A stretch of 64,000 nucleotides of DNA from Prevotella communis (GTDB lineage Bacteria > Bacteroidota > Bacteroidia > Bacteroidales > Bacteroidaceae): the NCBI RefSeq assembly GCF_022024175.1, contig NZ_CP091794.1:1488001-1552000 (forward strand). Reading direction: 5' to 3'. The position numbers and the translations under genes are program-made. The notes beneath the pieces were generated by a model, which ran no database searches, had not been told where the DNA came from, and worked only from the letters and a program-made list of their open reading frames with translations. This document shows, in pieces, positions 26,306 through 48,598 of the stretch. Numbering within the stretch: position 1 is the first letter of the stretch; each line of letters starts with the position of its first letter.

Positions 26306-26908
26306 TCAATTCAGTCCAAAGAGGGCACGCAGACCGTTGTCAACGCCCGAGAATCCCATGAAGGCGAGGCTCAGCAGACCGGCAGAAACCAGCACGATAG
26401 CCATGCCGCGCATGCCCTTGGGCACATTGGTGAGCTCCAGCTGTTCGCGCATGCCAGCAAAGACGGTGAGGGCAAGTCCGAAGCCGATAGCCGTAGAGAG
26501 GGCATAGACGACCGATTGCCCCAGGTTCATCTCTTTCTGGATGACGAGGATAGCCACACCCAGCACGGCACAGTTGGTGGTGATGAGCGGGAGGAAGATG
26601 CCCAGCGCCTGATAGAGGGCGGGTGATACCTTTTTGAGGATAATCTCGACCATCTGGACGAGTGAGGCGATAACCAGGATGAAGGCTATGGTCTGCAGAT
26701 ACTCCAGTCCGGCAGGTACGAGGACGTAGGTCTGGACGAGCCAGGTGACGAGCGTGGCCAGCACCATGACGAAGGCTACGGCAGCCGACATGCCCAGCGA
26801 GGTGTCAATCTTTTTTGATACGCCGAGGAAGGGACAGATACCCAGGAACTGCGCCAACACGATATTGTTGACGAAGATGGCGCTGATGAAAATCAATATA
26901 TATTCCAT
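26306..26908 (-). CDS. rnfA: Rnf complex integral membrane subunit A
   Basis: The 200-residue protein has six membrane segments, with the conserved NNIVLAQFLGICPFLGVS in the first and ITTNCAVLGVAIL with its conserved Cys in the fourth. RnfA and RnfE are homologous with opposite topology; together they bind an intramembrane [2Fe-2S] centre through such cysteines. It is the last gene of the operon, followed by a terminator. Confidence 0.96.
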   Translation of the reverse strand: MEYILIFISAIFVNNIVLAQFLGICPFLGVSKKIDTSLGMSAAVAFVMVLATLVTWLVQTYVLVPAGLEYLQTIAFILVIASLVQMVEIILKKVSPALYQALGIFLPLITTNCAVLGVAILVIQKEMNLGQSVVYALSTAIGFGLALTVFAGMREQLELTNVPKGMRGMAIVLVSAGLLSLAFMGFSGVDNGLRALFGLN

Positions 26909-26927
26909 AATCTAATGTCTTAACTTC

Positions 26928-27509
26928 TTAACTCCTGAATTTGTTCACAATCGCAATGAGATAACCCAGCGTGATAAAGGCTCCGGGAGCCAGTACGAAG
27001 AGCAGGATGTTGTAGTTCTCGGGGATGAAGGCGAAGCCGAAGATGGCGCCAGAACCCAGAATCTCGCGGACGATACCCAGCAGGGTGAGACCGAGGGTGA
27101 AGCCAAGTCCGATGCCGATGCCGTCGAAGAGAGAGGCAAGGGGCGAGTTCTTGGCAGCAAAAGCCTCTGCACGTCCCAGGATGATACAGTTGACCACAAT
27201 CAGCGGGATGAAGAGTCCCAGCGACTTGTCGATATCAGGCAGATAGGCCTTGATGAGCATCTGGAGCAGGGTGACGAAGGCTGCGATAACCACGATGAAC
27301 ACGGGGATGCGCACCTTGTCTGGCGTGATACTCTTGATGCATGAAATCACTACATTGGTGCAGATGAGCACTGCCATCGTGGCCAGTCCCATTGCCAGTC
27401 CGTTGGAGGCCGATGTGGTGGTGGCCAGCGTAGGACACATACCAAGCATCAGGACAAACGTGGGGTTGTCCTTGATGATGCCGTTTTTGATGATATTTAT
27501 ATAGTTCAT
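26928..27509 (-). CDS. rnfE: Rnf complex integral membrane subunit E
   Basis: The start at ATG 27507-27509 gives 193 residues. The N-terminal KNGIIKDNPTFVLMLGMCPTLA and VVNCIILGRAEAFA are the RnfE hallmarks, each carrying a conserved Cys. There are six membrane segments. It is a subunit of the ferredoxin:NAD+ oxidoreductase that pumps Na+ or H+. The ATG is immediately preceded by five heptanucleotide repeats that overlap the end of rnfG. Confidence 0.96.
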   Translation of the reverse strand: MNYINIIKNGIIKDNPTFVLMLGMCPTLATTTSASNGLAMGLATMAVLICTNVVISCIKSITPDKVRIPVFIVVIAAFVTLLQMLIKAYLPDIDKSLGLFIPLIVVNCIILGRAEAFAAKNSPLASLFDGIGIGLGFTLGLTLLGIVREILGSGAIFGFAFIPENYNILLFVLAPGAFITLGYLIAIVNKFRS

Positions 27510-27510
27510 A

Positions 27511-27545
27511 ATTCTCAATTGTCAATTGTCAATTATCAATTCTCA
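27511..27545 (-). repeat. Five tandem heptanucleotide repeats at rnfG/rnfE junction
   Basis: Five ATTNTCA units (plus strand) fill the junction; the rnfG stop codon lies inside the fourth and the rnfE ATG directly abuts the first. Because the period is 7, TGA triplets fall in all three frames. Confidence 0.9.
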
Positions 27546-28159
27546 ATTTGCTCCGTAGCTCCTGTTTCGCCGTCGGCCTGTGGCTTCATATAGGCATTAT
27601 AGGCATTGTTGACAGCCTTCAGAAAGGCACGACTGGTAATGGTAGAGGCGGTAATGGCATCTACCTGTCCGCCATCCTTGGATACCACGAGGGGCTCGGC
27701 AGGTGTCAGACCTATGATGCTGCCCTTGCCGTCGGCCTGAAACCATTTGTCGGCCTTGGCACCCAGTCCTGGCGTCTCAGCATGCTCCAAGAGGGTATAA
27801 CCCAGAATCATGCCGTCGGGATTGAATCCTACGAGGACGCGCAACTTGCCGCCGAAGCCGTCGGTAGTGCTCTCAACGGCAGCACCGAGGTTCTGCTTGT
27901 CGGCATTCTGGGTGTGATAGACGACGAAAGTCAGTTCCTTGCCTTTATTATCTGGTTGCTTCACGGTGTCGGTGCTGGTGACGGTTAACTCATCACATTG
28001 CATCACGGCCTTGATACCGTCGGCCAGCGCTTTCTCCTTCTGGTCGGCAATAGGACCGCTGGTCGCGCTATTGACCCATGCGAGGATGGCACCCATGATG
28101 ACGGCCACGCCGGTGAGTACCAGCACCATATTCAGTAATGATGATTCAAGCTTCTTCAT
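27536..28159 (-). CDS. rnfG: Rnf complex FMN-binding subunit G
   Basis: The start at ATG 28157-28159 gives 207 residues: one N-terminal membrane anchor, then a periplasmic FMN-binding domain. The motif VDAITASTITSRAF matches the covalent flavinylation site in which a Thr after the acidic residue carries FMN. RnfG relays electrons between RnfD and the rest of the complex. It overlaps the heptad repeat at its 3' end. Confidence 0.93.
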   Translation of the reverse strand: MKKLESSLLNMVLVLTGVAVIMGAILAWVNSATSGPIADQKEKALADGIKAVMQCDELTVTSTDTVKQPDNKGKELTFVVYHTQNADKQNLGAAVESTTDGFGGKLRVLVGFNPDGMILGYTLLEHAETPGLGAKADKWFQADGKGSIIGLTPAEPLVVSKDGGQVDAITASTITSRAFLKAVNNAYNAYMKPQADGETGATEQIEN

Positions 28160-28172
28160 AATCTTTACCTTT

Positions 28173-29177
28173 TTACTTTTTGGCCGGCTCTTCACCGAAG
28201 CGCTTGGGTTTCACATAATTATTGATGAGCGGTGTGAACGCGTTCATAATCAGGATAGCGAACGACATACCCTCAGGATAAGCACCCCAGTTGCGGATGA
28301 TGATGGTGAGCAGACCAATGCATACACCGTAGATAATCTGACCTTTGGGTGTCATGGGCGAGGTGACATAGTCGGTAGCCATGAAGATGGCACCCAACAG
28401 CAGACCGCCGCTCAGAATCACCGTGGTAGGATCGGCATAGATGGGGTTGATGAGGTGCATGATGGCGCTGAACACAAACACGGTGCCGATGATGCTCACG
28501 GGGATATGCCAGGTGATAATCTTACGCCAGAGCATGAAGAGGAGTCCGGCAATCAGGGCCAGACCGCAGATCTCACCAATAGTACCTGCACCACCACCAA
28601 TGGAATAGTCGCCCAGCAGCAGGCTGAACGCATCAGGCAGCTGGTTGAGCACGTTGGCATCACCATTCTGGATAGCCTGCTTCATCACAGCCAGCGGCGT
28701 GGCACCTGTAGCGGCGTCGGTATATTCCAGCAGATGGCCGGGCTTGGGCCAACTGGTCATCTGGGCAGGGAAGGCCACCAGCAGCACGCAGCGCCCCACC
28801 AATGCGGGATTGAAGATATTGTTGCCCAGTCCGCCAAAGGTCATCTTGCCCACGCCGATAGCGAAGAGGGCACCGATGACGATGATCCAGATGGGGAGGT
28901 TTGAGGGCAGATTCATGCCCAGAAGAAGACCCGTGAGGGCAGCCGAGCCGTCGAGGATGGTATTCTCCTGGCGGCCGAGGATAAACTTATTGATAGCCCA
29001 CTCGAAGAGCACACAGGCCAATACGCTTGTGAGGCACACGATGGCTGAGCCGATGCCGAAATAGAAGAACGAGACGAGCAGCGCAGGAATCAGGGCAATG
29101 ATAACCCCGTACATGTTGCGCTCTACAGAGTCCGTTCCGTGGGCATGTGGCGAAAGTGATACAATTAACTTTGACAT
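28173..29177 (-). CDS. rnfD: Rnf complex membrane subunit D
   Basis: The 334-residue protein has about ten membrane segments. The LEYTDAATGATPLAVM segment contains the TGATPL flavinylation motif of RnfD/NqrB, and NNIFNPALVGR and GGLLLGAIFMATDYVTSP are conserved. It carries covalent FMN and riboflavin and belongs to the ion-translocating core. Its ATG forms part of a heptanucleotide repeat array that fills the rnfC-rnfD gap. Confidence 0.96.
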   Translation of the reverse strand: MSKLIVSLSPHAHGTDSVERNMYGVIIALIPALLVSFFYFGIGSAIVCLTSVLACVLFEWAINKFILGRQENTILDGSAALTGLLLGMNLPSNLPIWIIVIGALFAIGVGKMTFGGLGNNIFNPALVGRCVLLVAFPAQMTSWPKPGHLLEYTDAATGATPLAVMKQAIQNGDANVLNQLPDAFSLLLGDYSIGGGAGTIGEICGLALIAGLLFMLWRKIITWHIPVSIIGTVFVFSAIMHLINPIYADPTTVILSGGLLLGAIFMATDYVTSPMTPKGQIIYGVCIGLLTIIIRNWGAYPEGMSFAILIMNAFTPLINNYVKPKRFGEEPAKK

Positions 29178-29202
29178 TAAACGTTAAACATTAAAGATTA
29201 AA
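29175..29202 (-). repeat. Four tandem heptanucleotide repeats containing the rnfD start codon
   Basis: Four units of the form nnTTAAA (plus strand) run from the rnfD ATG (29175-29177) to just before the rnfC stop codon (29208-29210). Confidence 0.85.
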
Positions 29203-29207
29203 CATTT

Positions 29208-30575
29208 TTATTTCTTTGCAGCACGACTGCGGATGATGCCCATCACGGTCTGCTTGCCCTGACGGATATTGTCGAGCAGCGGACGGTGGGCAGGACAGGT
29301 GAACTGACACGAGCCACACTCGATACAACTGGTGATGTCCTCGCTCTCGGCGCGCTCCCAGTTCTTGAAGGCTGAGAGCTTGGCCAGCAGATAAGGCTCC
29401 AGGCCCATAGGACAGGCGCCCACGCACTTGGCACAGCGGATACAGGGCTGAGGCTCCTTGCGACGGGCATCATCGCCAGAGAGAATTGTCACGGAGTTGG
29501 TACCCTTGCAGATGGGTACTTCGGTAGAGGTGAGGGCCTTGCCCATCATAGGACCGCCGGCGAGGAGCTTGTTGTCGCCCTCGGGCATGCCGCCACAGAG
29601 GTCTATCAGCGTCTGCATGGGGGTACCCATACGAACGAGGTAGTTGCCTGGATTCTGGAGGCGCTTACCGGTAACGGTGGTATAGCGTTCGAAGAGAGGC
29701 TTATGTTTCATAACTGCCTGATAAACAGCGAAGGCAGTACCTACATTCTGAACTATTGCTCCAACGTTGACAGGGATGGCTGGAGGAGCCGGAACCTGAC
29801 GGTTGATAACGGCATCGACCAGTTGCTTCTCACCGCCCTGAGGGTAGCGCTGGGCCAGGGGAACCACCTCAACCTGGTATTCCGAGGTGGCGAACGCTTC
29901 GGCACACTTTTTGGTGAGGAGGTCGATGGCGGCAGGCTTATTGGTCTCGATGCCGATATAGCCCTTTGTCACCTTCGCACCCTTCATCAGCAGTTCCAGA
30001 CCCACGAGAATCTCGTCGGCATGTTCCATCATCAGACGGTAGTCGGCTGTGATATAGGGCTCGCACTCTACGGCGTTGATAATCACGCACTCAGCCTTGG
30101 CCGTAGGGGGAGGGGTCAGTTTGATGAACGTGGGGAAACAGGCACCGCCCATACCGACGACACCAGCCGTCTTGATGCGTGTCACAATCTCCTCGGGCGT
30201 CAGTTCGGGATGATCCTTCACCAGTTCCAGCGTCTCGCTGCGGTCGATGCTCTCTTCCCATTCGTCGCCTTCCACATCAATGATAATCACGGGTTTGCGA
30301 TAGCCGGTAGCGTCGATAGCGGTATCAATCTTGGCCACTGTACCACTCACGGACGAGTGGATGGGTGCTGATACAAAGCCGCCGGCCTCGGCCAGCAGGG
30401 TGCCCACCTTGACCTTGTCGCCCTTCTGGACCACAGGCGTAGCAGGTGCACCGATATGCTGTGAGAGTGGGAAAATGGCCTGTTTGGGCAGCGGAGCCAC
30501 CTGTGTGGCCACCTCGTGGGTCAACTTGTTTTCCTCGGGGTGAATACCACCTATGCTAAATGTCTTAATCTTCAT
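29208..30575 (-). CDS. rnfC: Rnf complex NADH-binding iron-sulfur subunit C
   Basis: The 455-residue peripheral subunit has an N-terminal barrel, the NADH/FMN domain (GVVGMGGACFPTFIKL) and two C-terminal [4Fe-4S] motifs, CIRCAKCVGACP and CIECGSCQFTCP. It oxidises or reduces NAD(H) on the cytosolic face. Its ATG overlaps the rnfB stop by four bases (ATGA), so translation is probably coupled. Confidence 0.96.
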   Translation of the reverse strand: MKIKTFSIGGIHPEENKLTHEVATQVAPLPKQAIFPLSQHIGAPATPVVQKGDKVKVGTLLAEAGGFVSAPIHSSVSGTVAKIDTAIDATGYRKPVIIIDVEGDEWEESIDRSETLELVKDHPELTPEEIVTRIKTAGVVGMGGACFPTFIKLTPPPTAKAECVIINAVECEPYITADYRLMMEHADEILVGLELLMKGAKVTKGYIGIETNKPAAIDLLTKKCAEAFATSEYQVEVVPLAQRYPQGGEKQLVDAVINRQVPAPPAIPVNVGAIVQNVGTAFAVYQAVMKHKPLFERYTTVTGKRLQNPGNYLVRMGTPMQTLIDLCGGMPEGDNKLLAGGPMMGKALTSTEVPICKGTNSVTILSGDDARRKEPQPCIRCAKCVGACPMGLEPYLLAKLSAFKNWERAESEDITSCIECGSCQFTCPAHRPLLDNIRQGKQTVMGIIRSRAAKK

Positions 30576-31444
30576 GCTTGAGCCTCCTTTTCTTCTTTAA
30601 CATTTTCTACGGGTTTAGGAGCGGGGAAGTTGACAGCGTGGATGGCCTGCTTCGGACAAACGGCGACGCACTTCCTGCAAAGACGACATTTGCTGAAGTC
30701 GATATAGGCCAGGTTGTTGGCCACGGTGATAGCGCCAAACGGACACTCCTTCTCACACTTGCCGCAACCGATACAAGCGGCCTTACAAGCCTTCATGGCC
30801 ACGGCACCCTTGTCCTTGTTGACACACGACACAAACACGCGACGGCCCTTGATGCCCTTCTTGCGGAGCTCGATGATGCCGCGCGGACAAGCCTTCGTAC
30901 AGGCACCGCAGGCGGTACACTTATCCTCGTCAACCTCGGGCAGACCCGTCTCGGGATTCAGGTGGATGGCGTCAAACTGACAAGCAGCGACACAGTCGCC
31001 ACATCCCAGACAACCAAAGCCGCAGGCCGTCTCGCCGGCACCGCAGGCATTCATGGCCGCACAGGTGCGCAGACCGGCATATTCGGCTATTTTGGGACGA
31101 TTCTCGCAGGTGCCGTTACATCTGACAACGGCTACCTTTGGCTCGCCATTCGCAATGGCCATACCAAGAAGGTCGGCCACCTGACCCATCACGTCGGCAC
31201 CACCAACAGGACAGTTCAGTCCGTCGATGCTCCCGCTGTCGGCACCTTTTACCAAGGCGTCGGCCATTCCGCCACAACCGGCGAAACCACATCCGCCGCA
31301 GTTGGCACCAGGCAACACCTCGTTGACCTGCGCAATGCGGGGATCATCGAAGACAGCAAACTTCTTGGAACAGACGAACAGCACGATGGCTGCGATGAGT
31401 CCGATGCTTCCAAGTACAATGACTGCAATCAAGATAAAATCCAT
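30572..31444 (-). CDS. rnfB: Rnf complex ferredoxin-like subunit B
   Basis: The 290-residue protein has an N-terminal membrane anchor, the CGGCGFAGCGG cluster of the RnfB/ArsA-type Fe-S domain, and several CxxCxxCxxxCP motifs (CLGCGDCVAACQ, CTACGACTKACP, CIGCGKCEKECP, CRLCRKCVAVCP). It receives electrons from reduced ferredoxin. The C-terminus ends in a charged Lys/Glu tail. It lies after rseC in the operon and overlaps rnfC. Confidence 0.97.
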   Translation of the reverse strand: MDFILIAVIVLGSIGLIAAIVLFVCSKKFAVFDDPRIAQVNEVLPGANCGGCGFAGCGGMADALVKGADSGSIDGLNCPVGGADVMGQVADLLGMAIANGEPKVAVVRCNGTCENRPKIAEYAGLRTCAAMNACGAGETACGFGCLGCGDCVAACQFDAIHLNPETGLPEVDEDKCTACGACTKACPRGIIELRKKGIKGRRVFVSCVNKDKGAVAMKACKAACIGCGKCEKECPFGAITVANNLAYIDFSKCRLCRKCVAVCPKQAIHAVNFPAPKPVENVKEEKEAQA

Positions 31445-34344: not shown

Positions 34345-35292
34345 ATGAGGTACACAGAGTTAGGACGTACAGGGATGAAGATTTCCCACCTGAGTTTCGG
34401 CGCTTCTTCTTTAGGTAGCGTGTTTCGTGAGACGAACGAAAGCGAGAGTTTTAAAGCCGTAGAAACTGCCATTGAAGGGGGAATCAATTTCATCGACGTG
34501 AGTCCTTATTACGGACATTATAAGGCTGAAACGGTATTGGGTAAGGCCCTGCGAAATATACCCCGTGATAAATATTTCCTGAGTACGAAGGTAGGCCGCT
34601 ATGGTAAGGACGGCGTGAATACCTGGGACTATTCTGCCAAGCGCGTGACGGATAGTGTCTATGAGAGCATGGAACGTCTGGGTATCGACTTCATCGACCT
34701 GATCAACGTGCATGATATCGAGTTCCAGGCTGCATTGCCCGGCGGCTTGCAGAAGGTTGTTGACGAGACATTGCCCGCCCTGGTAGAACTCAAGAAGAAG
34801 GGCGTGGTAGGTCATGTGGGTATTACCGACCTGCAGCTGGAGAACCTGAAGTGGGTTATCGAACATAGTGAGGCTGGTACGGTAGAGAGTATCCTGAACT
34901 TCTGTCACCACACCCTTAACGACGATGCCATCGTGGATTATCTGGATTTCTTTGAGCAGCATGGCATCGGTATCGTGAATGCGTCGCCCCTCTCCATGGG
35001 ACTGCTGTCACAGCGTGGCGTTCCTGTCTGGCATCCGGCTCCCAAGGCTTTGGTAGAGGTTTGTCAGAAGGCTGCCCAGTATTGTAACGAGAAGAATTAT
35101 CCTATCGAGAAACTGGCTGTACAGTTCTCTGTAAGTAATCCTCGCATCGCTTCGACGCTGTTCTCTTCGGCTAATCCTGAGAATGTGCGCCGTAATATCG
35201 AGTGGGCCAACGAAGAGCCCGACTGGGACTTGGTTCGTGAGGTGAAGGAGATTATCGGTAACCAGCAGCGCGTCACATGGGCAAACTCATAA
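34345..35292 (+). CDS. Aldo/keto reductase, L-galactose/L-fucose 1-dehydrogenase-like
   Basis: This is a 315-residue AKR with the catalytic tetrad visible: Asp51 and Tyr55/56 in FIDVSPYYG, Lys82 in STKVGRY, His123 in NVHDIEF. Its sequence style is strikingly that of plant L-galactose dehydrogenase: an N-terminus ELGRTGMKISHLSFGASSLG followed by SVF, INVHDIEF-like text, and ASPLSMGLLSQRGVPVWHPA. That enzyme oxidises L-galactose to L-galactono-1,4-lactone with NAD+; bacterial relatives also use L-fucose or D-arabinose. It is the first of three genes, followed by an amidohydrolase (overlap 16 bases) and a zinc dehydrogenase, which fits dehydrogenase-lactonase-dehydrogenase order. The substrate is inferred. 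Confidence 0.87.
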   Translation: MRYTELGRTGMKISHLSFGASSLGSVFRETNESESFKAVETAIEGGINFIDVSPYYGHYKAETVLGKALRNIPRDKYFLSTKVGRYGKDGVNTWDYSAKRVTDSVYESMERLGIDFIDLINVHDIEFQAALPGGLQKVVDETLPALVELKKKGVVGHVGITDLQLENLKWVIEHSEAGTVESILNFCHHTLNDDAIVDYLDFFEQHGIGIVNASPLSMGLLSQRGVPVWHPAPKALVEVCQKAAQYCNEKNYPIEKLAVQFSVSNPRIASTLFSSANPENVRRNIEWANEEPDWDLVREVKEIIGNQQRVTWANS

Positions 35293-36167
35293 TCGATGCC
35301 CACAGTCATCTGTGGCTGAAACAGGATACCACCGTCGACGGGAAGCGTATCTTGTCGTTGAAGAACGGCCGGAGTATTTTCATGGACGAGGAGGTGCAGA
35401 TGTTGCCGCCGTTTATGATTGACGGACAGAACACGGCTGAGGTGTTCCTGTCGAACATGAACTATGCGCAGGTGGGAGCCGCTGTCGTGGTACAGGAGGT
35501 GATAGATGGTTGTCAGAACGCCTACCTGACGAAGGTGCAACAGCAATATCCCGACCGCTTTTTCTGTATGGGCATGGCCTGGAATACGGACGAGGCACAG
35601 GCTGTCATCGACGCCGGACTGAAGGGTATCGCCTTCCCTGGTCATCGTATCCACGAGTCGTTGCTCACGTTGATGCCTGTCTTCAAACTCATGGAGAGCA
35701 AGGAGATGGTGCTGTCCATGTGTCTGGCTGATGATGAAGAGCAGATAGGGCAGATGGCGGAGGTAATCCAGGAATGTCCTGACCTCAAGGTAGCCATCGG
35801 TCATTTCGGAATGCCCAGCACGGCATCGTTCCGCAGTCAGGTGCTGCTGGCTCGTCAGGGACAGAACGTGATGGTGGAGTCGGGTGGTATCACGTGGCTC
35901 TATAACTCTGAGTTCTATCCGTTCCCCACGGCCATCCGCCGTATTCGCGAGGCGGCCGACCTGGTAGGCATGGAGCGTTTGATGTGGGGCTCCGACTATC
36001 CTCGCACCATTACGGCTATCACGTATCGTATGTCGTATGATTTCGTGGAGAAATCGTCGGAACTGACGGATAGCGAGAAGGCGATGTTCCTGGGTGGTAA
36101 CGCGAAGTCGTTCTATGGCTTTGAGAACCTGCCGGAACTGCCTTATATCAAGAATATGTCTGAGTGA
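35277..36167 (+). CDS. Amidohydrolase-family sugar lactonase (COG3618-like)
   Basis: The 296-residue TIM-barrel hydrolase has the metal-binding DAHSHLW (His9, His11), a later IGHFGMP His, and the C-terminal MWGSDYPRT Asp. This is the pattern of the COG3618 family, which contains L-fuconolactonase, L-rhamnono-lactonase and 2-pyrone-4,6-dicarboxylate lactonase. Next to a L-galactose dehydrogenase-like AKR it most likely opens the L-galactono- or L-fuconolactone ring. It overlaps the AKR gene by 16 bases. A two-copy GGTGAAA heptad follows directly after its stop codon. Confidence 0.87.
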   Translation: MGKLIIDAHSHLWLKQDTTVDGKRILSLKNGRSIFMDEEVQMLPPFMIDGQNTAEVFLSNMNYAQVGAAVVVQEVIDGCQNAYLTKVQQQYPDRFFCMGMAWNTDEAQAVIDAGLKGIAFPGHRIHESLLTLMPVFKLMESKEMVLSMCLADDEEQIGQMAEVIQECPDLKVAIGHFGMPSTASFRSQVLLARQGQNVMVESGGITWLYNSEFYPFPTAIRRIREAADLVGMERLMWGSDYPRTITAITYRMSYDFVEKSSELTDSEKAMFLGGNAKSFYGFENLPELPYIKNMSE

Positions 36168-36181
36168 GGTGAAAGGTGAAA
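36168..36181 (+). repeat. Two-copy heptanucleotide repeat after the lactonase stop codon
   Basis: GGTGAAA occurs twice, starting at the first base after the TGA stop, followed by GAGAATC; member of the heptad junction class. Confidence 0.6.
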
Positions 36182-36232
36182 GAGAATCATTAATAGTTAA
36201 ATGAGTTAAGCTAATAAGTAATCAGTAGTATA

Positions 36233-37252
36233 ATGAAAGCAATTCAAATTACGCATTCGCAAGAATTAAACATCGTAGAGCTGCCACAACCAGCGCAGCC
36301 TGGCGAGGGTGAAGTGCTGCTTCGCCTCAGTTATGTAGGCTTCTGTGGCTCAGATATCAATACCTTCATGGGGCGCAACACGATGGCGCTCAATCCCGTG
36401 ATTCCCGGTCACGAGGTAGGTGCCGTTATTGAGGCCGTTGGTGCTGGCGTACCCGAGACGCTGAAACCGGGCATGGTGGTTACGTGTAATCCTTATACCA
36501 ACTGTGGCAAGTGTGCCTCATGTCGCAACCAGCGCGTCAACGCATGTCAGCACAACGAGACGCTGGGCGTGCAGCGCAATGGTGCTATGAAGGAGTTTAT
36601 CGTCCTGCCCTGGGAGAAGATTATCCCTGCTGGTTCGCTCACGCCGAAGGTGACAGCCCTGGTAGAGCCGATGAGTGTTGGCTTCCATGCCGTGAGTCGT
36701 GCGCAGGTTACTGATATCGACGTGGTGATGGTGATTGGCTGTGGTATGGTAGGTATGGGTGCCATCGTTCGCAGTGTGATGCGTGGTGCAACCGTTATCG
36801 CTGCCGATATCGATGATGAGAAGTTGGCCCTGGCCAAGAAGATGGGTGCAACCTATACGCTGAATACCAAGACCGAGGATGCGCACCAGCGTCTGTCGGA
36901 GATGACAAACGGGTTTGGCCCTGACGTGGTGATTGAGGCCGTGGGTAGTGTGCCTACCTATCAGATGGCTATCAATGAGGTGGCTTTCACGGGTCGTGTG
37001 GCTTGTATCGGCTATGCCAAGTCTGAGGTGTCGTTCCAGACGAAATACTTCGTACAGAAGGAGTTGGATATCCGTGGCTCCCGTAATGCGCAGCCTTCCG
37101 ACTTCCGTGCCGTTATCCGTTATCTGGAGCGTGGCACCTGTCCGGTCGATGCCCTTATCACCAAGGTCATCAAGCCCGAGGAGGCACTTGAGACGATGCG
37201 TTGGTGGAGTGAGAACCCTGGCAAGGTGTTCAGAATCCTCGTGGAATTCTAA
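36233..37252 (+). CDS. Zinc-dependent dehydrogenase, L-galactonate 5-dehydrogenase-like
   Basis: This is a 339-residue medium-chain dehydrogenase. The catalytic zinc ligands are Cys38 (GFCGSD) and His60-Glu61 (IPGHEVG); the structural zinc site is CGKCASCRNQRVNAC (Cys91, 94, 97, 105). The Rossmann motif reads VIGCGMVGMGA. Segments VEPMSVGFHAVSRA and IRGSRNAQPSDF closely parallel E. coli LgoD (YjjN), which oxidises L-galactonate to D-tagaturonate. With the AKR and lactonase upstream this gives a coherent L-galactose to tagaturonate route. Sorbitol or threonine dehydrogenase-like roles are alternatives. Confidence 0.87.
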   Translation: MKAIQITHSQELNIVELPQPAQPGEGEVLLRLSYVGFCGSDINTFMGRNTMALNPVIPGHEVGAVIEAVGAGVPETLKPGMVVTCNPYTNCGKCASCRNQRVNACQHNETLGVQRNGAMKEFIVLPWEKIIPAGSLTPKVTALVEPMSVGFHAVSRAQVTDIDVVMVIGCGMVGMGAIVRSVMRGATVIAADIDDEKLALAKKMGATYTLNTKTEDAHQRLSEMTNGFGPDVVIEAVGSVPTYQMAINEVAFTGRVACIGYAKSEVSFQTKYFVQKELDIRGSRNAQPSDFRAVIRYLERGTCPVDALITKVIKPEEALETMRWWSENPGKVFRILVEF

Positions 37253-46013: not shown

Positions 46014-47084
46014 ATGGCAACTGAAAAGATTAGAATTAAGGATATCGCAGAGCGGGCGGGAGTGTCAGTGGGCACTGTCGACCGCGTTTTGCATGAAAGG
46101 CCTAACGTGTCTCCTGCAGCACGGGAGAAGGTAGAGAAGGCCTTGGCAGAAATGGATTATCAGCCTAATGTATATGCTTCAGCATTGGCTTATAATAAGG
46201 ATTATTTGTTTTGTTGCGTCATTCCGATGCACGAAAGTGAAGCCTATTGGGACGAGATTGAAGAAGGCGTGAAGGCATGTACCGCCCTCAGGCGTGATTT
46301 CCATATCTCCCTGAAGATTTTGTATTACGAGCGCTTCAACTCGGCTTCTTTTGAGAATATTGCCAAGGAATGTCTAGATGCTAATCCTGATGGTGTCATC
46401 GTAGTGCCAGCCCGACTGGATATCACTCGCGATTTCACGGAACAGTTGTCCGACCGTAATATTCCTTTCATCTTGCTTGATTCCTATCTGCCGGATTTGA
46501 AGCCATTGGCTTTCTATGGTCAGGACTCTTTCCAGAGTGGCTATTTTGCAGCCCGTATGATGATGCTGATTGCATCTAAGGAACAGGAGATTATGATGAT
46601 GAAGCAGCTCAACAACGGACATGTCGGTTCTAAGCAGCAGTCCAACCGTGAGACTGGCTTCCGTCATTATATGCGTGACCACTTCCCTGAAATTTCAATT
46701 ATTGACGTTGATCTCCCTCTTGGTGGTACGAAGGCACAATACGATAAGATCCTGGAGGACTTCTTCAAGGAGCATCCTCATGTGCACCATTGTATCACCT
46801 TCAATTCCAAGGCCCACCTCGTTGGCGAGTTCCTGTTGCGTACCAATCGTCGTAACGTGCAGATTATGGGTTACGATATGGTGCCAAAGAATGCCGAATG
46901 TGTGCGCCAGGGCAGTATCTCGTTCCTGATTGCCCAGCATGCCTATATGCAGGGCTATGCCTGCGTGGAGACCCTTTTCCAGGCTATCGTACTGAAGAAG
47001 GAGGTGAATCCCGTGAACTACATGCCTATTGAACTGCTGGTCAAGGAAAACATTGAATTCTATCGCCGAACGAATGTCGGATAA
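46014..47084 (+). CDS. LacI-family transcriptional regulator
   Basis: The 356-residue regulator has an N-terminal LacI helix-turn-helix (IRIKDIAERAGVSVGTVDR) with the hinge PNVSPAAREKVEKA, and a periplasmic-binding-type effector domain with AYWDEIEEGVKAC, DGVIVVPARLD and YMPIELLVKENIEF. It precedes the altronate dehydratase gene by 17 bases in the same direction, so it probably controls hexuronate (galacturonate/altronate) use, possibly autoregulated. The effector could be galacturonate, tagaturonate or altronate; this is inferred from context. Confidence 0.93.
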   Translation: MATEKIRIKDIAERAGVSVGTVDRVLHERPNVSPAAREKVEKALAEMDYQPNVYASALAYNKDYLFCCVIPMHESEAYWDEIEEGVKACTALRRDFHISLKILYYERFNSASFENIAKECLDANPDGVIVVPARLDITRDFTEQLSDRNIPFILLDSYLPDLKPLAFYGQDSFQSGYFAARMMMLIASKEQEIMMMKQLNNGHVGSKQQSNRETGFRHYMRDHFPEISIIDVDLPLGGTKAQYDKILEDFFKEHPHVHHCITFNSKAHLVGEFLLRTNRRNVQIMGYDMVPKNAECVRQGSISFLIAQHAYMQGYACVETLFQAIVLKKEVNPVNYMPIELLVKENIEFYRRTNVG

Positions 47085-47101: not shown

Positions 47102-48598
47102 ATGGAACTTAAAACTTATCTCAAAATCAATCCTGCAGACTCTGTCGTTGTCTGTTTGGTAGAAAAGAAAAAAGGCGACGTCATCGAAGCTGGTGGCGAA
47201 CGTGTGGTGCTGGCCGAGGATGTACCTGCTGGTCATAAGGTGCTGTTGCGCGATGTGAAGCAGGGTGAGAACATCATCAAATACGGCTATCCTATTGGTC
47301 ATGCTCTTAAGGATTTGAAAGCTGGCGAATGGGTGAATGAGAATAATCTGAAGACGAATCTGTCTGGTACGCTTGAATATACATATTCTCCTGTTAACGA
47401 GGTACTTAATATCAAGAAGGAGAACAGGACCTTTAAGGGTTATGTTCGTAAGAATGGCGATGTGGGCGTACGTAATGAGATATGGATTGTGCCTACTGTG
47501 GGCTGTGTCAACGGTATTGCCGAGCGCCTCGCAAAACAGTTGCGTGAGGAGACCGGTTGCAAGGATATCGATTCTATCTATACCTGGCATCACAACTACG
47601 GTTGTTCGCAGCTGAGCGGTGACCACGAGAATACCCGCAAGGTGCTTCGCGACATTGTGCTTCATCCTAATGCCGGAGCAGTATTGGTACTGGGCCTGGG
47701 ATGTGAGAACAACCAGCCTGATGACTTCATGAAGCTCTTGGGCGATTACGACAAAGACCGCATCCGCTTGCTCGTTACTCAGAAGGTTGATGGCGACGAG
47801 GTTGAGGCTGGCATGCAGATTTTGCGTGAGCTCTACGCTATTGCCAGCAAAGACCGCCGTGAGGATGTGCCTGTCAGTAAACTGCGTGTAGGCTTGAAGT
47901 GTGGTGGCTCTGACGGATTCAGCGGTATCACCGCCAATCCCCTTGTTGGTGAGTTCAGCGACTGGCTCGTGGCACAGGGTGGTACGAGCGTATTGACCGA
48001 GGTGCCTGAGATGTTTGGTGCTGAAACGATTCTGATGAACCGTTGCGAGACGCCTCAGCTCTTTGAGAAGACTGTTTCGATGATTAATAATTTCAAGGAG
48101 TATTTCCTGAGCCACGGCGAACCCGTAGGCGAGAACCCCAGTCCTGGTAACAAGGCAGGTGGTATCTCTACCCTCGAGGATAAGGCCCTTGGTTGTACGC
48201 AGAAATGTGGTCGTGCCCCTGTGAGCGGTGTGATGGAATACGGAGACCGCCTGTCGGCTACAGGCCTGAATCTCCTCTCTGCTCCTGGTAATGATCTCGT
48301 GGCTTCTACCGCTCTGGCTTCTTGCGGTTGTCACCTGGTATTGTTTACCACTGGCCGTGGTACGCCCTTCGGCACCTTTGTTCCTACGATGAAGATTGCC
48401 ACCAATCCTACATTGGCCGAGCGTAAGCCCAACTGGGTGGATTTCTCTGCCGGACAACTCATTCAGGGTCGTACGATGGAGGAACTCGTGCCCGAGTTTA
48501 TCGATAAGGTGCTGGCTGTTGCCTCTGGCGAGAAAGCCCGTAATGAGGAAAACGACTACCGCGAGATTTCAATATTCAAGAACGGCGTAACGCTATAG
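47102..48598 (+). CDS. uxaA: Altronate dehydratase
   Basis: The 498-residue UxaA protein has an N-terminal SAF domain (~1-75, VLAEDVPAGHKVLL) and the C-terminal dehydratase core (~100-498) with VGVRNEIWIVPTVGCVN, GLKCGGSDGFSGITANP and CTQKCGRAPVSGVMEYGD. It converts D-altronate to 2-keto-3-deoxy-D-gluconate in the galacturonate pathway. It is coupled to the upstream LacI gene. UxaB and UxaC are not in the window. Five heptanucleotide repeats begin directly after its TAG stop. Confidence 0.95.
   Translation: MELKTYLKINPADSVVVCLVEKKKGDVIEAGGERVVLAEDVPAGHKVLLRDVKQGENIIKYGYPIGHALKDLKAGEWVNENNLKTNLSGTLEYTYSPVNEVLNIKKENRTFKGYVRKNGDVGVRNEIWIVPTVGCVNGIAERLAKQLREETGCKDIDSIYTWHHNYGCSQLSGDHENTRKVLRDIVLHPNAGAVLVLGLGCENNQPDDFMKLLGDYDKDRIRLLVTQKVDGDEVEAGMQILRELYAIASKDRREDVPVSKLRVGLKCGGSDGFSGITANPLVGEFSDWLVAQGGTSVLTEVPEMFGAETILMNRCETPQLFEKTVSMINNFKEYFLSHGEPVGENPSPGNKAGGISTLEDKALGCTQKCGRAPVSGVMEYGDRLSATGLNLLSAPGNDLVASTALASCGCHLVLFTTGRGTPFGTFVPTMKIATNPTLAERKPNWVDFSAGQLIQGRTMEELVPEFIDKVLAVASGEKARNEENDYREISIFKNGVTL

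Follow-up and report, generated by a model that had tools for sequence, protein, structure and literature searches.

We analysed a 64,000-nucleotide stretch of the Prevotella communis genome (assembly GCF_022024175.1, contig NZ_CP091794.1, here C1), which we call the window and which covers C1:1488001-1552000 of a one-contig genome of 3.55 Mb. The window contains three intact open reading frames, all on the + strand, that encode an aldo/keto reductase (AKR), an Amidohydro_2 protein taken here as a lactonase, and a zinc dehydrogenase of 315, 296, and 339 amino acids, respectively (Table 1). The lactonase frame starts 16 nt inside the end of the AKR gene. An original prediction, made from the letters of the sequence, had placed three adjacent genes of these kinds here and proposed that they take L-galactose to D-tagaturonate; the three genes are present and intact as it described them. 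Their order, AKR, lactonase, zinc dehydrogenase, is that of the L-galactose pathway of the Bacteroides vulgatus type. We rejected the chloride channel gene that lies 33 bp 5′ of the AKR gene as a part of the module, since among 80 related loci (L003 to L082) only L003 gave a match over half of the query at an E value of ≤1e-10.

Table 1. Features of the window that bear on the proposed L-galactose pathway.
Feature	Position in window	Strand	Basis
Aldo/keto reductase, predicted L-galactose 1-dehydrogenase (step 1)	34345..35292	+	Pfam; identity to PDB 7lh6 and to the B. finegoldii operon
Amidohydro_2 protein, predicted L-galactono-lactonase (step 2)	35277..36167	+	Pfam; identity to the B. finegoldii operon
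Zinc-type MDR dehydrogenase, predicted L-galactonate 5-dehydrogenase (step 3)	36233..37252	+	Pfam; Bacteroidales clade apart from LgoD
Cysteines C91, C94, C97, and C105 of the zinc enzyme (presumed structural-zinc positions)	36503..36547	+	Alignment
GSRNA segment, residues 282-286 of the zinc enzyme	37076..37090	+	Alignment
LacI-family regulator, 17 bp upstream of the UxaA-family gene	46014..47084	+	Pfam
UxaA-family (altronate/galactarate dehydratase) gene, candidate downstream step	47102..48598	+	Family Pfam domains

We found that the AKR, judged by its sequence relations, is in the L-galactose dehydrogenase branch of its family. It matches the Pfam family Aldo_ket_red with 163 bits and is 70% identical (217/310) to PDB 7lh6, which is named L-galactose dehydrogenase, and 44% identical (133/304) to 7ezi, values that bear out its original description as L-galactose dehydrogenase-like. 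All five PDB sequences that match it at an E value of ≤1e-60 carry the name L-galactose dehydrogenase. The alignment also places D51, Y56, K82, and H123 in the protein, which we take to be the AKR tetrad. A Burkholderia multivorans region chosen for comparison with an L-fucose dehydrogenase gave no match to the window AKR.

The second protein matches Amidohydro_2 with 128 bits. We found that H9, H11, H176, and D240 are invariant across nine aligned lactonases, including distant ones from Catenovulum and Paenibacillus. We rejected the protein as an L-fuconolactonase, as it reached only 28.4 bits, over residues 223-282, on the curated L-fucono-1,5-lactonase model NF052480, which has a cut-off of 400. 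The lactonase, being this far from the curated model, is one of two details in which the original prediction did not hold up.

The third protein has the Pfam domains ADH_N and ADH_zinc_N and carries C38, H60, and E61 together with C91, C94, C97, and C105, presumably the zinc-ligand positions. The segment GSRNA is common to this enzyme, to E. coli LgoD, and to the Catenovulum enzyme, and it reads ASRNA in Paenibacillus. LgoD shares with the window enzyme the predicted reaction, the zinc-ligand residues, and GSRNA, but the two are only 29 to 30% identical, which is no higher than the 21 to 31% found for YdjJ, GatD, RspB, Tdh, IdnD, and Ahr. In a tree of 28 zinc dehydrogenases, 19 of them from Bacteroidales, LgoD grouped with the Catenovulum and Paenibacillus enzymes, and the window enzyme fell in a separate Bacteroidales clade. 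The fork that holds the 19 Bacteroidales enzymes had support of 94/89, and the branch that separates them from the three LgoD-like rows had support of 99/97, with six other rows uncounted. Long outgroup branches make the positions of the other E. coli proteins uncertain. We therefore rejected the window enzyme as an LgoD orthologue on its low identity and its separate clade. The LgoD assignment made originally was right about GSRNA and the zinc-ligand residues and wrong about identity to LgoD. It had been said that the assignment would fall if the enzyme lay among sorbitol or threonine dehydrogenases and not with LgoD; the enzyme does fall apart from LgoD, yet the tree, which has no sorbitol dehydrogenase among its rows, does not put it with the threonine, galactitol-phosphate, or idonate dehydrogenases either. 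Similarity to LgoD is accordingly unsuitable for finding the L-galactose pathway in Bacteroidales.

All three proteins have close relatives in an operon of B. finegoldii with the order AKR-lactonase-FucP-ZnDH (ZnDH, zinc dehydrogenase). The AKR, the lactonase at the equivalent place, and the zinc dehydrogenase of that operon are 75%, 62%, and 70% identical to those of the window, and the window lactonase and zinc dehydrogenase fall in the same branches as the operon proteins. We take BVU_0220 to be the lactonase of the corresponding B. vulgatus pathway. That L-galactose pathway, of Bacteroides (Phocaeicola) vulgatus, is attributed to Hobbs et al. 2014 in excerpts of later papers. One of these (PMC12632266, J Bacteriol 2025) notes that BVU_0219 reportedly acts as an L-galactose dehydrogenase and BVU_0222 as an L-galactonate dehydrogenase, and it names D-tagaturonate as an intermediate. 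A legend (PMC4555090) gives the order of BVU_0219-0222 as AKR-lactonase-FucP-ZnDH. The B. vulgatus pathway has the same enzyme classes, the same order, and the same intermediate as we predict for the window. The two differ in that B. vulgatus and B. finegoldii have a permease gene between those for the lactonase and the zinc enzyme and B. finegoldii has an adjacent LacI regulator, whereas the window cluster has neither. Since this pathway is already published, with the same gene order, the original suggestion that a three-step L-galactose module in Bacteroidales was undescribed fails, and the window trio most likely adds one more example of the known pathway.

We concluded that the trio very probably carries out the known Bacteroides L-galactose pathway. 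In this route, the AKR would convert L-galactose to L-galactono-lactone, the lactonase would open this to L-galactonate, and the zinc enzyme would oxidise L-galactonate at C5 to D-tagaturonate. The route is the one first proposed for these genes, and we consider that proposal very probably right, as predicted from the sequence relations and from the downstream genes described below.

A scan of contigs with the lactonase found 333 related loci. Our locus counts use the best 80 of the 333, so the sample leans towards close relatives. An AKR gene and a zinc dehydrogenase gene lie near the lactonase gene in 68 of the 80. Where there was enough flanking DNA (52 of the 80 loci), both genes were on the same strand within 5 kb in 46, the exceptions being L021, L024, L043, L051, L054, and L063. 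The exact 16-nt overlap of the AKR and lactonase genes recurs in 40 of 75 measurable loci. The recurrence of the trio in other genomes, proposed at the outset as a check, was thus found. All three genes belong to large generic families, and three unrelated dehydrogenase and hydrolase genes could in principle be neighbours by chance. The conserved adjacency and the recurring overlap show that this adjacency is not chance, and Catenovulum and Paenibacillus likewise have AKR, amidohydrolase, and zinc dehydrogenase genes grouped together, ordered differently; we regard chance adjacency as exceedingly improbable.

The surroundings of the trio vary more. Of the 68 loci that have both the AKR and the zinc dehydrogenase, 52 have a FucP-type gene at a distance of at most 6 kb and 16 do not, and we therefore treated the permease as a varying part of the module. 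Counted anywhere within the 80 loci, GH29 genes were found in 34 and genes for a RhaM-type mutarotase in 29. Fucose isomerase was found in 6 of them, UxaA and UxaB in 3 each, and GH95 in 2. In six loci (L022, L047, L072, L076, L080, and L081), an L-fucose isomerase (FucI) gene is inserted between the genes for the lactonase and the FucP-type permease, where the use of the two sugars, L-fucose and L-galactose, may be under common control. At E ≤ 1e-40, 16 of the 295 genomes sampled from the order had the lactonase, and at E ≤ 1e-60, 121 of the 251 from the family did. The window lactonase is 73 to 96% identical to those of the best 80 of the 333 loci and up to 88% identical to those of genomes of other genera, but only 62 to 70% identical to those of the six other genomes of its own genus that have it. 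This closer relation to copies from other genera suggests, from sequence comparison, that the gene was transferred within the family.

We found genes for a route downstream of tagaturonate, namely UxaB, a UxaA-family protein, and a KDPG-type aldolase, in the same genome. The tagaturonate reductase UxaB, for which a search nearby had been proposed, is encoded outside the window at C1:1892495-1893937 and scores 628 bits against a model cut-off of 359. The UxaA-family gene lies 9.85 kb from the trio; its protein scores 304 bits on the galactarate model (cut-off, 731) and passes no curated NCBIfam cut-off. The position of roughly 10 kb away given originally for an altronate dehydratase gene, uxaA, was therefore right, and a match to an altronate-specific model was not found. 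The KDPG-type aldolase gene is at C1:2032817, and UxaC is at C1:2186308. UxaB would reduce tagaturonate, the UxaA-family enzyme would then dehydrate the product, and after phosphorylation the KDPG-type aldolase would split what results. The LacI-family regulator encoded next to the UxaA-family gene possibly controls hexuronate genes. We rejected it as the equivalent of the LacI gene next to the operon in B. finegoldii, as no match was found at the thresholds used for the chloride channel.

L-Galactose would enter the cell through a FucP-type permease encoded elsewhere in the genome, where two FucP-family permeases pass the cut-off. One (C1:836485-837729) is 74% identical to the permease of the B. 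finegoldii operon, with a GH29 gene 6 bp to its 3′ side. The other (L095:8739-12913) lies beside a gene for a bifunctional fucokinase/fucose-1-phosphate guanylyltransferase and likely serves fucose salvage. E. coli FucP is reported, in an excerpt of the literature, to be able to transport L-galactose, less well than L-fucose. A search of the genome for fucose isomerase found none; the same search did detect it in E. coli and in two further control genomes.

The genome has three GH95 genes. Two of their products best match PDB 4ufc, with 1,026 and 948 bits against 610 and 586 for the next best, and the third best matches 2rdy (536 bits) and matches 4ufc less well (435 bits). The entry 4UFC is BACOVA_03438, the α-L-galactosidase of B. 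ovatus, which in excerpts of its description released exclusively L-galactose from corn xylan and had only trace activity on fucosylated oligosaccharides (PMC4491172). The genes for the two 4UFC-like enzymes lie within C1:981000-1026000 (L097 and L098). Around one lie GH115, GH10-esterase, and a hybrid two-component regulator, and around the other lie GH31, GH43 (GH43-CBM6), and two GH2. These neighbourhoods are likely complex-xylan loci, which suggests complex xylan as a source of L-galactose. We infer that cereal glucuronoarabinoxylan is the main source, from which the two enzymes would free L-galactose. Thr370 was not used as a marker of GH95 specificity because a later paper found it not decisive.

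We then compared the occurrence of the module and of GH95 across the 251 genomes of the family. The lactonase alone (E ≤ 1e-60; one match, in G396, is partial) stood for the trio, and GH95 was counted at an E value of ≤1e-220, both thresholds being fixed beforehand. Of the 121 genomes with the lactonase, 88 had GH95, versus 24 of the 130 without it, an odds ratio of 11.8 that ignores shared ancestry, as do the other counts. Among the 152 genomes with a completeness of at least 90, the figures were 54 of 68 versus 15 of 84, and in the genus of P. communis they were 7 of 7 versus 2 of 10. In contrast, fucose isomerase was present in 41 of 121 genomes with the lactonase and in 44 of 130 without it (odds ratio, 1.00). 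The lactonase is thus tied to GH95 enzymes related to α-L-galactosidase and not to fucose isomerase, which points to grass xylan as the source of the L-galactose. Among the titles and abstract openings searched, we found no publication that links the module to GH95 in Prevotella, a weak negative because most subscription papers lay outside that search.

These counts bear on L-fucose, which the original prediction had given as the alternative substrate. If the module mainly oxidised L-fucose, the AKR would make fuconolactone, the lactonase fuconate, and the zinc enzyme a 5-keto-6-deoxy acid. The company of FucP-type permeases and GH29 fucosidases in relatives would fit this, as would the FucI gene inserted in 6 of the 80 loci; the P. 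communis genome itself has three GH29 genes and, on searching, no FucI, and another bacterial AKR is reported to accept D-arabinose, L-fucose, and L-galactose. Presence of the module is nevertheless independent of FucI and tied to L-galactosidase-related GH95. L-Fuconate has no C6 hydroxyl, and the zinc enzyme could therefore not make tagaturonate from it. Plant L-galactose dehydrogenase has an affinity of 56 mM for L-fucose versus 0.1 to 0.4 mM for L-galactose, according to an excerpt of a review (PMC11066809), and the LguA enzyme of Luteolibacter is described in the excerpt of PMC12632266 as having no activity on L-fucose. The substrate data and the co-occurrence together disfavour L-fucose, and we consider it unlikely as the main substrate.

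Luteolibacter also raises the question of other sugars. Excerpts of PMC12632266 describe the lguABCDEF cluster of Luteolibacter sp. LG18, whose LguA and LguD take L-glucose and L-gluconate besides L-galactose and L-galactonate, with L-glucose handled via an epimerase. By analogy, the window module could serve another hexose or its acid (L-glucose and L-gluconate, or L-gulose and L-gulonate), with L-galactose as a side activity. According to the same excerpts, however, the kcat/Km of LguA for L-galactose exceeds that for L-glucose 40-fold, and the enzymes of B. vulgatus are described as very inefficient on L-glucose and L-gluconate; we find this reading quite improbable. The Luteolibacter cluster differs from that of the window in including downstream genes, and in those excerpts no lactonase is named in it and LguD is described as distant from BVU_0222.

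The clusters of Catenovulum adriaticum (L084; Gammaproteobacteria) and Paenibacillus cellulositrophicus (L085; Bacillota) show a different set of enzymes. The window AKR shares 47% identity with the AKR of the first and 51% with that of the second, but the lactonases of the two clusters are only about 22% identical to the window lactonase. These lactonases match the fuconolactonase model over their whole length (286 and 234 bits, both under the cut-off of 400), and the zinc enzymes are LgoD-like, 45% and 42% identical to LgoD. By annotation, a mannitol dehydrogenase family gene and an altronate dehydratase family gene lie near the Catenovulum trio, and a GH95 gene lies near the Paenibacillus trio. 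The likeliest reading is that one L-galactose pathway has two enzyme sets.

Two further gene groups were noted by eye. Genes that look like an Rnf/Rsx electron-transport operon occupy positions 26306-31444 of the window on the minus strand, and genes that look like an Nqr operon lie downstream of UxaB (L096:10010-15766).

Several points weigh against assigning the trio to the L-galactose pathway. Every catalytic step is predicted, and orthology to the BVU proteins is traced through the B. finegoldii relatives and gene order. The cluster has no permease of the kind found in 52 of 68 related loci, and the UxaA-family protein passes no altronate-specific model. L-Fucose would also be fitted by the GH29 next to the FucP relative in P. 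communis and by the GH29 and fucose isomerase genes in 34 and 6 of the 80 related loci. Among the more complete genomes, 14 of 68 with the lactonase have no GH95. The GH95 set is an imperfect proxy, with matches as low as 45% identity and 735 bits, and a Xanthomonas GH95 with 43% identity to 4UFC is reported to be a fucosidase; the set is therefore not purely L-galactosidase. The disregard of shared ancestry in the co-occurrence counts adds to these points.

With these points weighed, we assign a common Prevotella cluster to a published pathway that generic names such as "amidohydrolase family protein" and "threonine dehydrogenase-like" now hide; the close relatives listed for the lactonase and the zinc enzyme bore names of this generic kind or no name. 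That apparently one pathway has two enzyme sets matters for annotation as well. The co-occurrence with GH95, with no link to fucose isomerase, ties this rare-sugar pathway to cereal fibre. A broader proposal, which in our judgement stands evenly balanced between holding and failing, is that about half of the Bacteroidaceae have a dedicated L-galactose sink as the end point when they break down the side chains of grass xylan, with the GH95 α-L-galactosidases of complex xylan loci feeding it. On this proposal, the pathway would have been assembled at least twice, once in a Bacteroidales type and once in an LgoD/fuconolactonase type, and Prevotella of the rumen and the gut would regularly feed on L-galactose from cereal glucuronoarabinoxylan.

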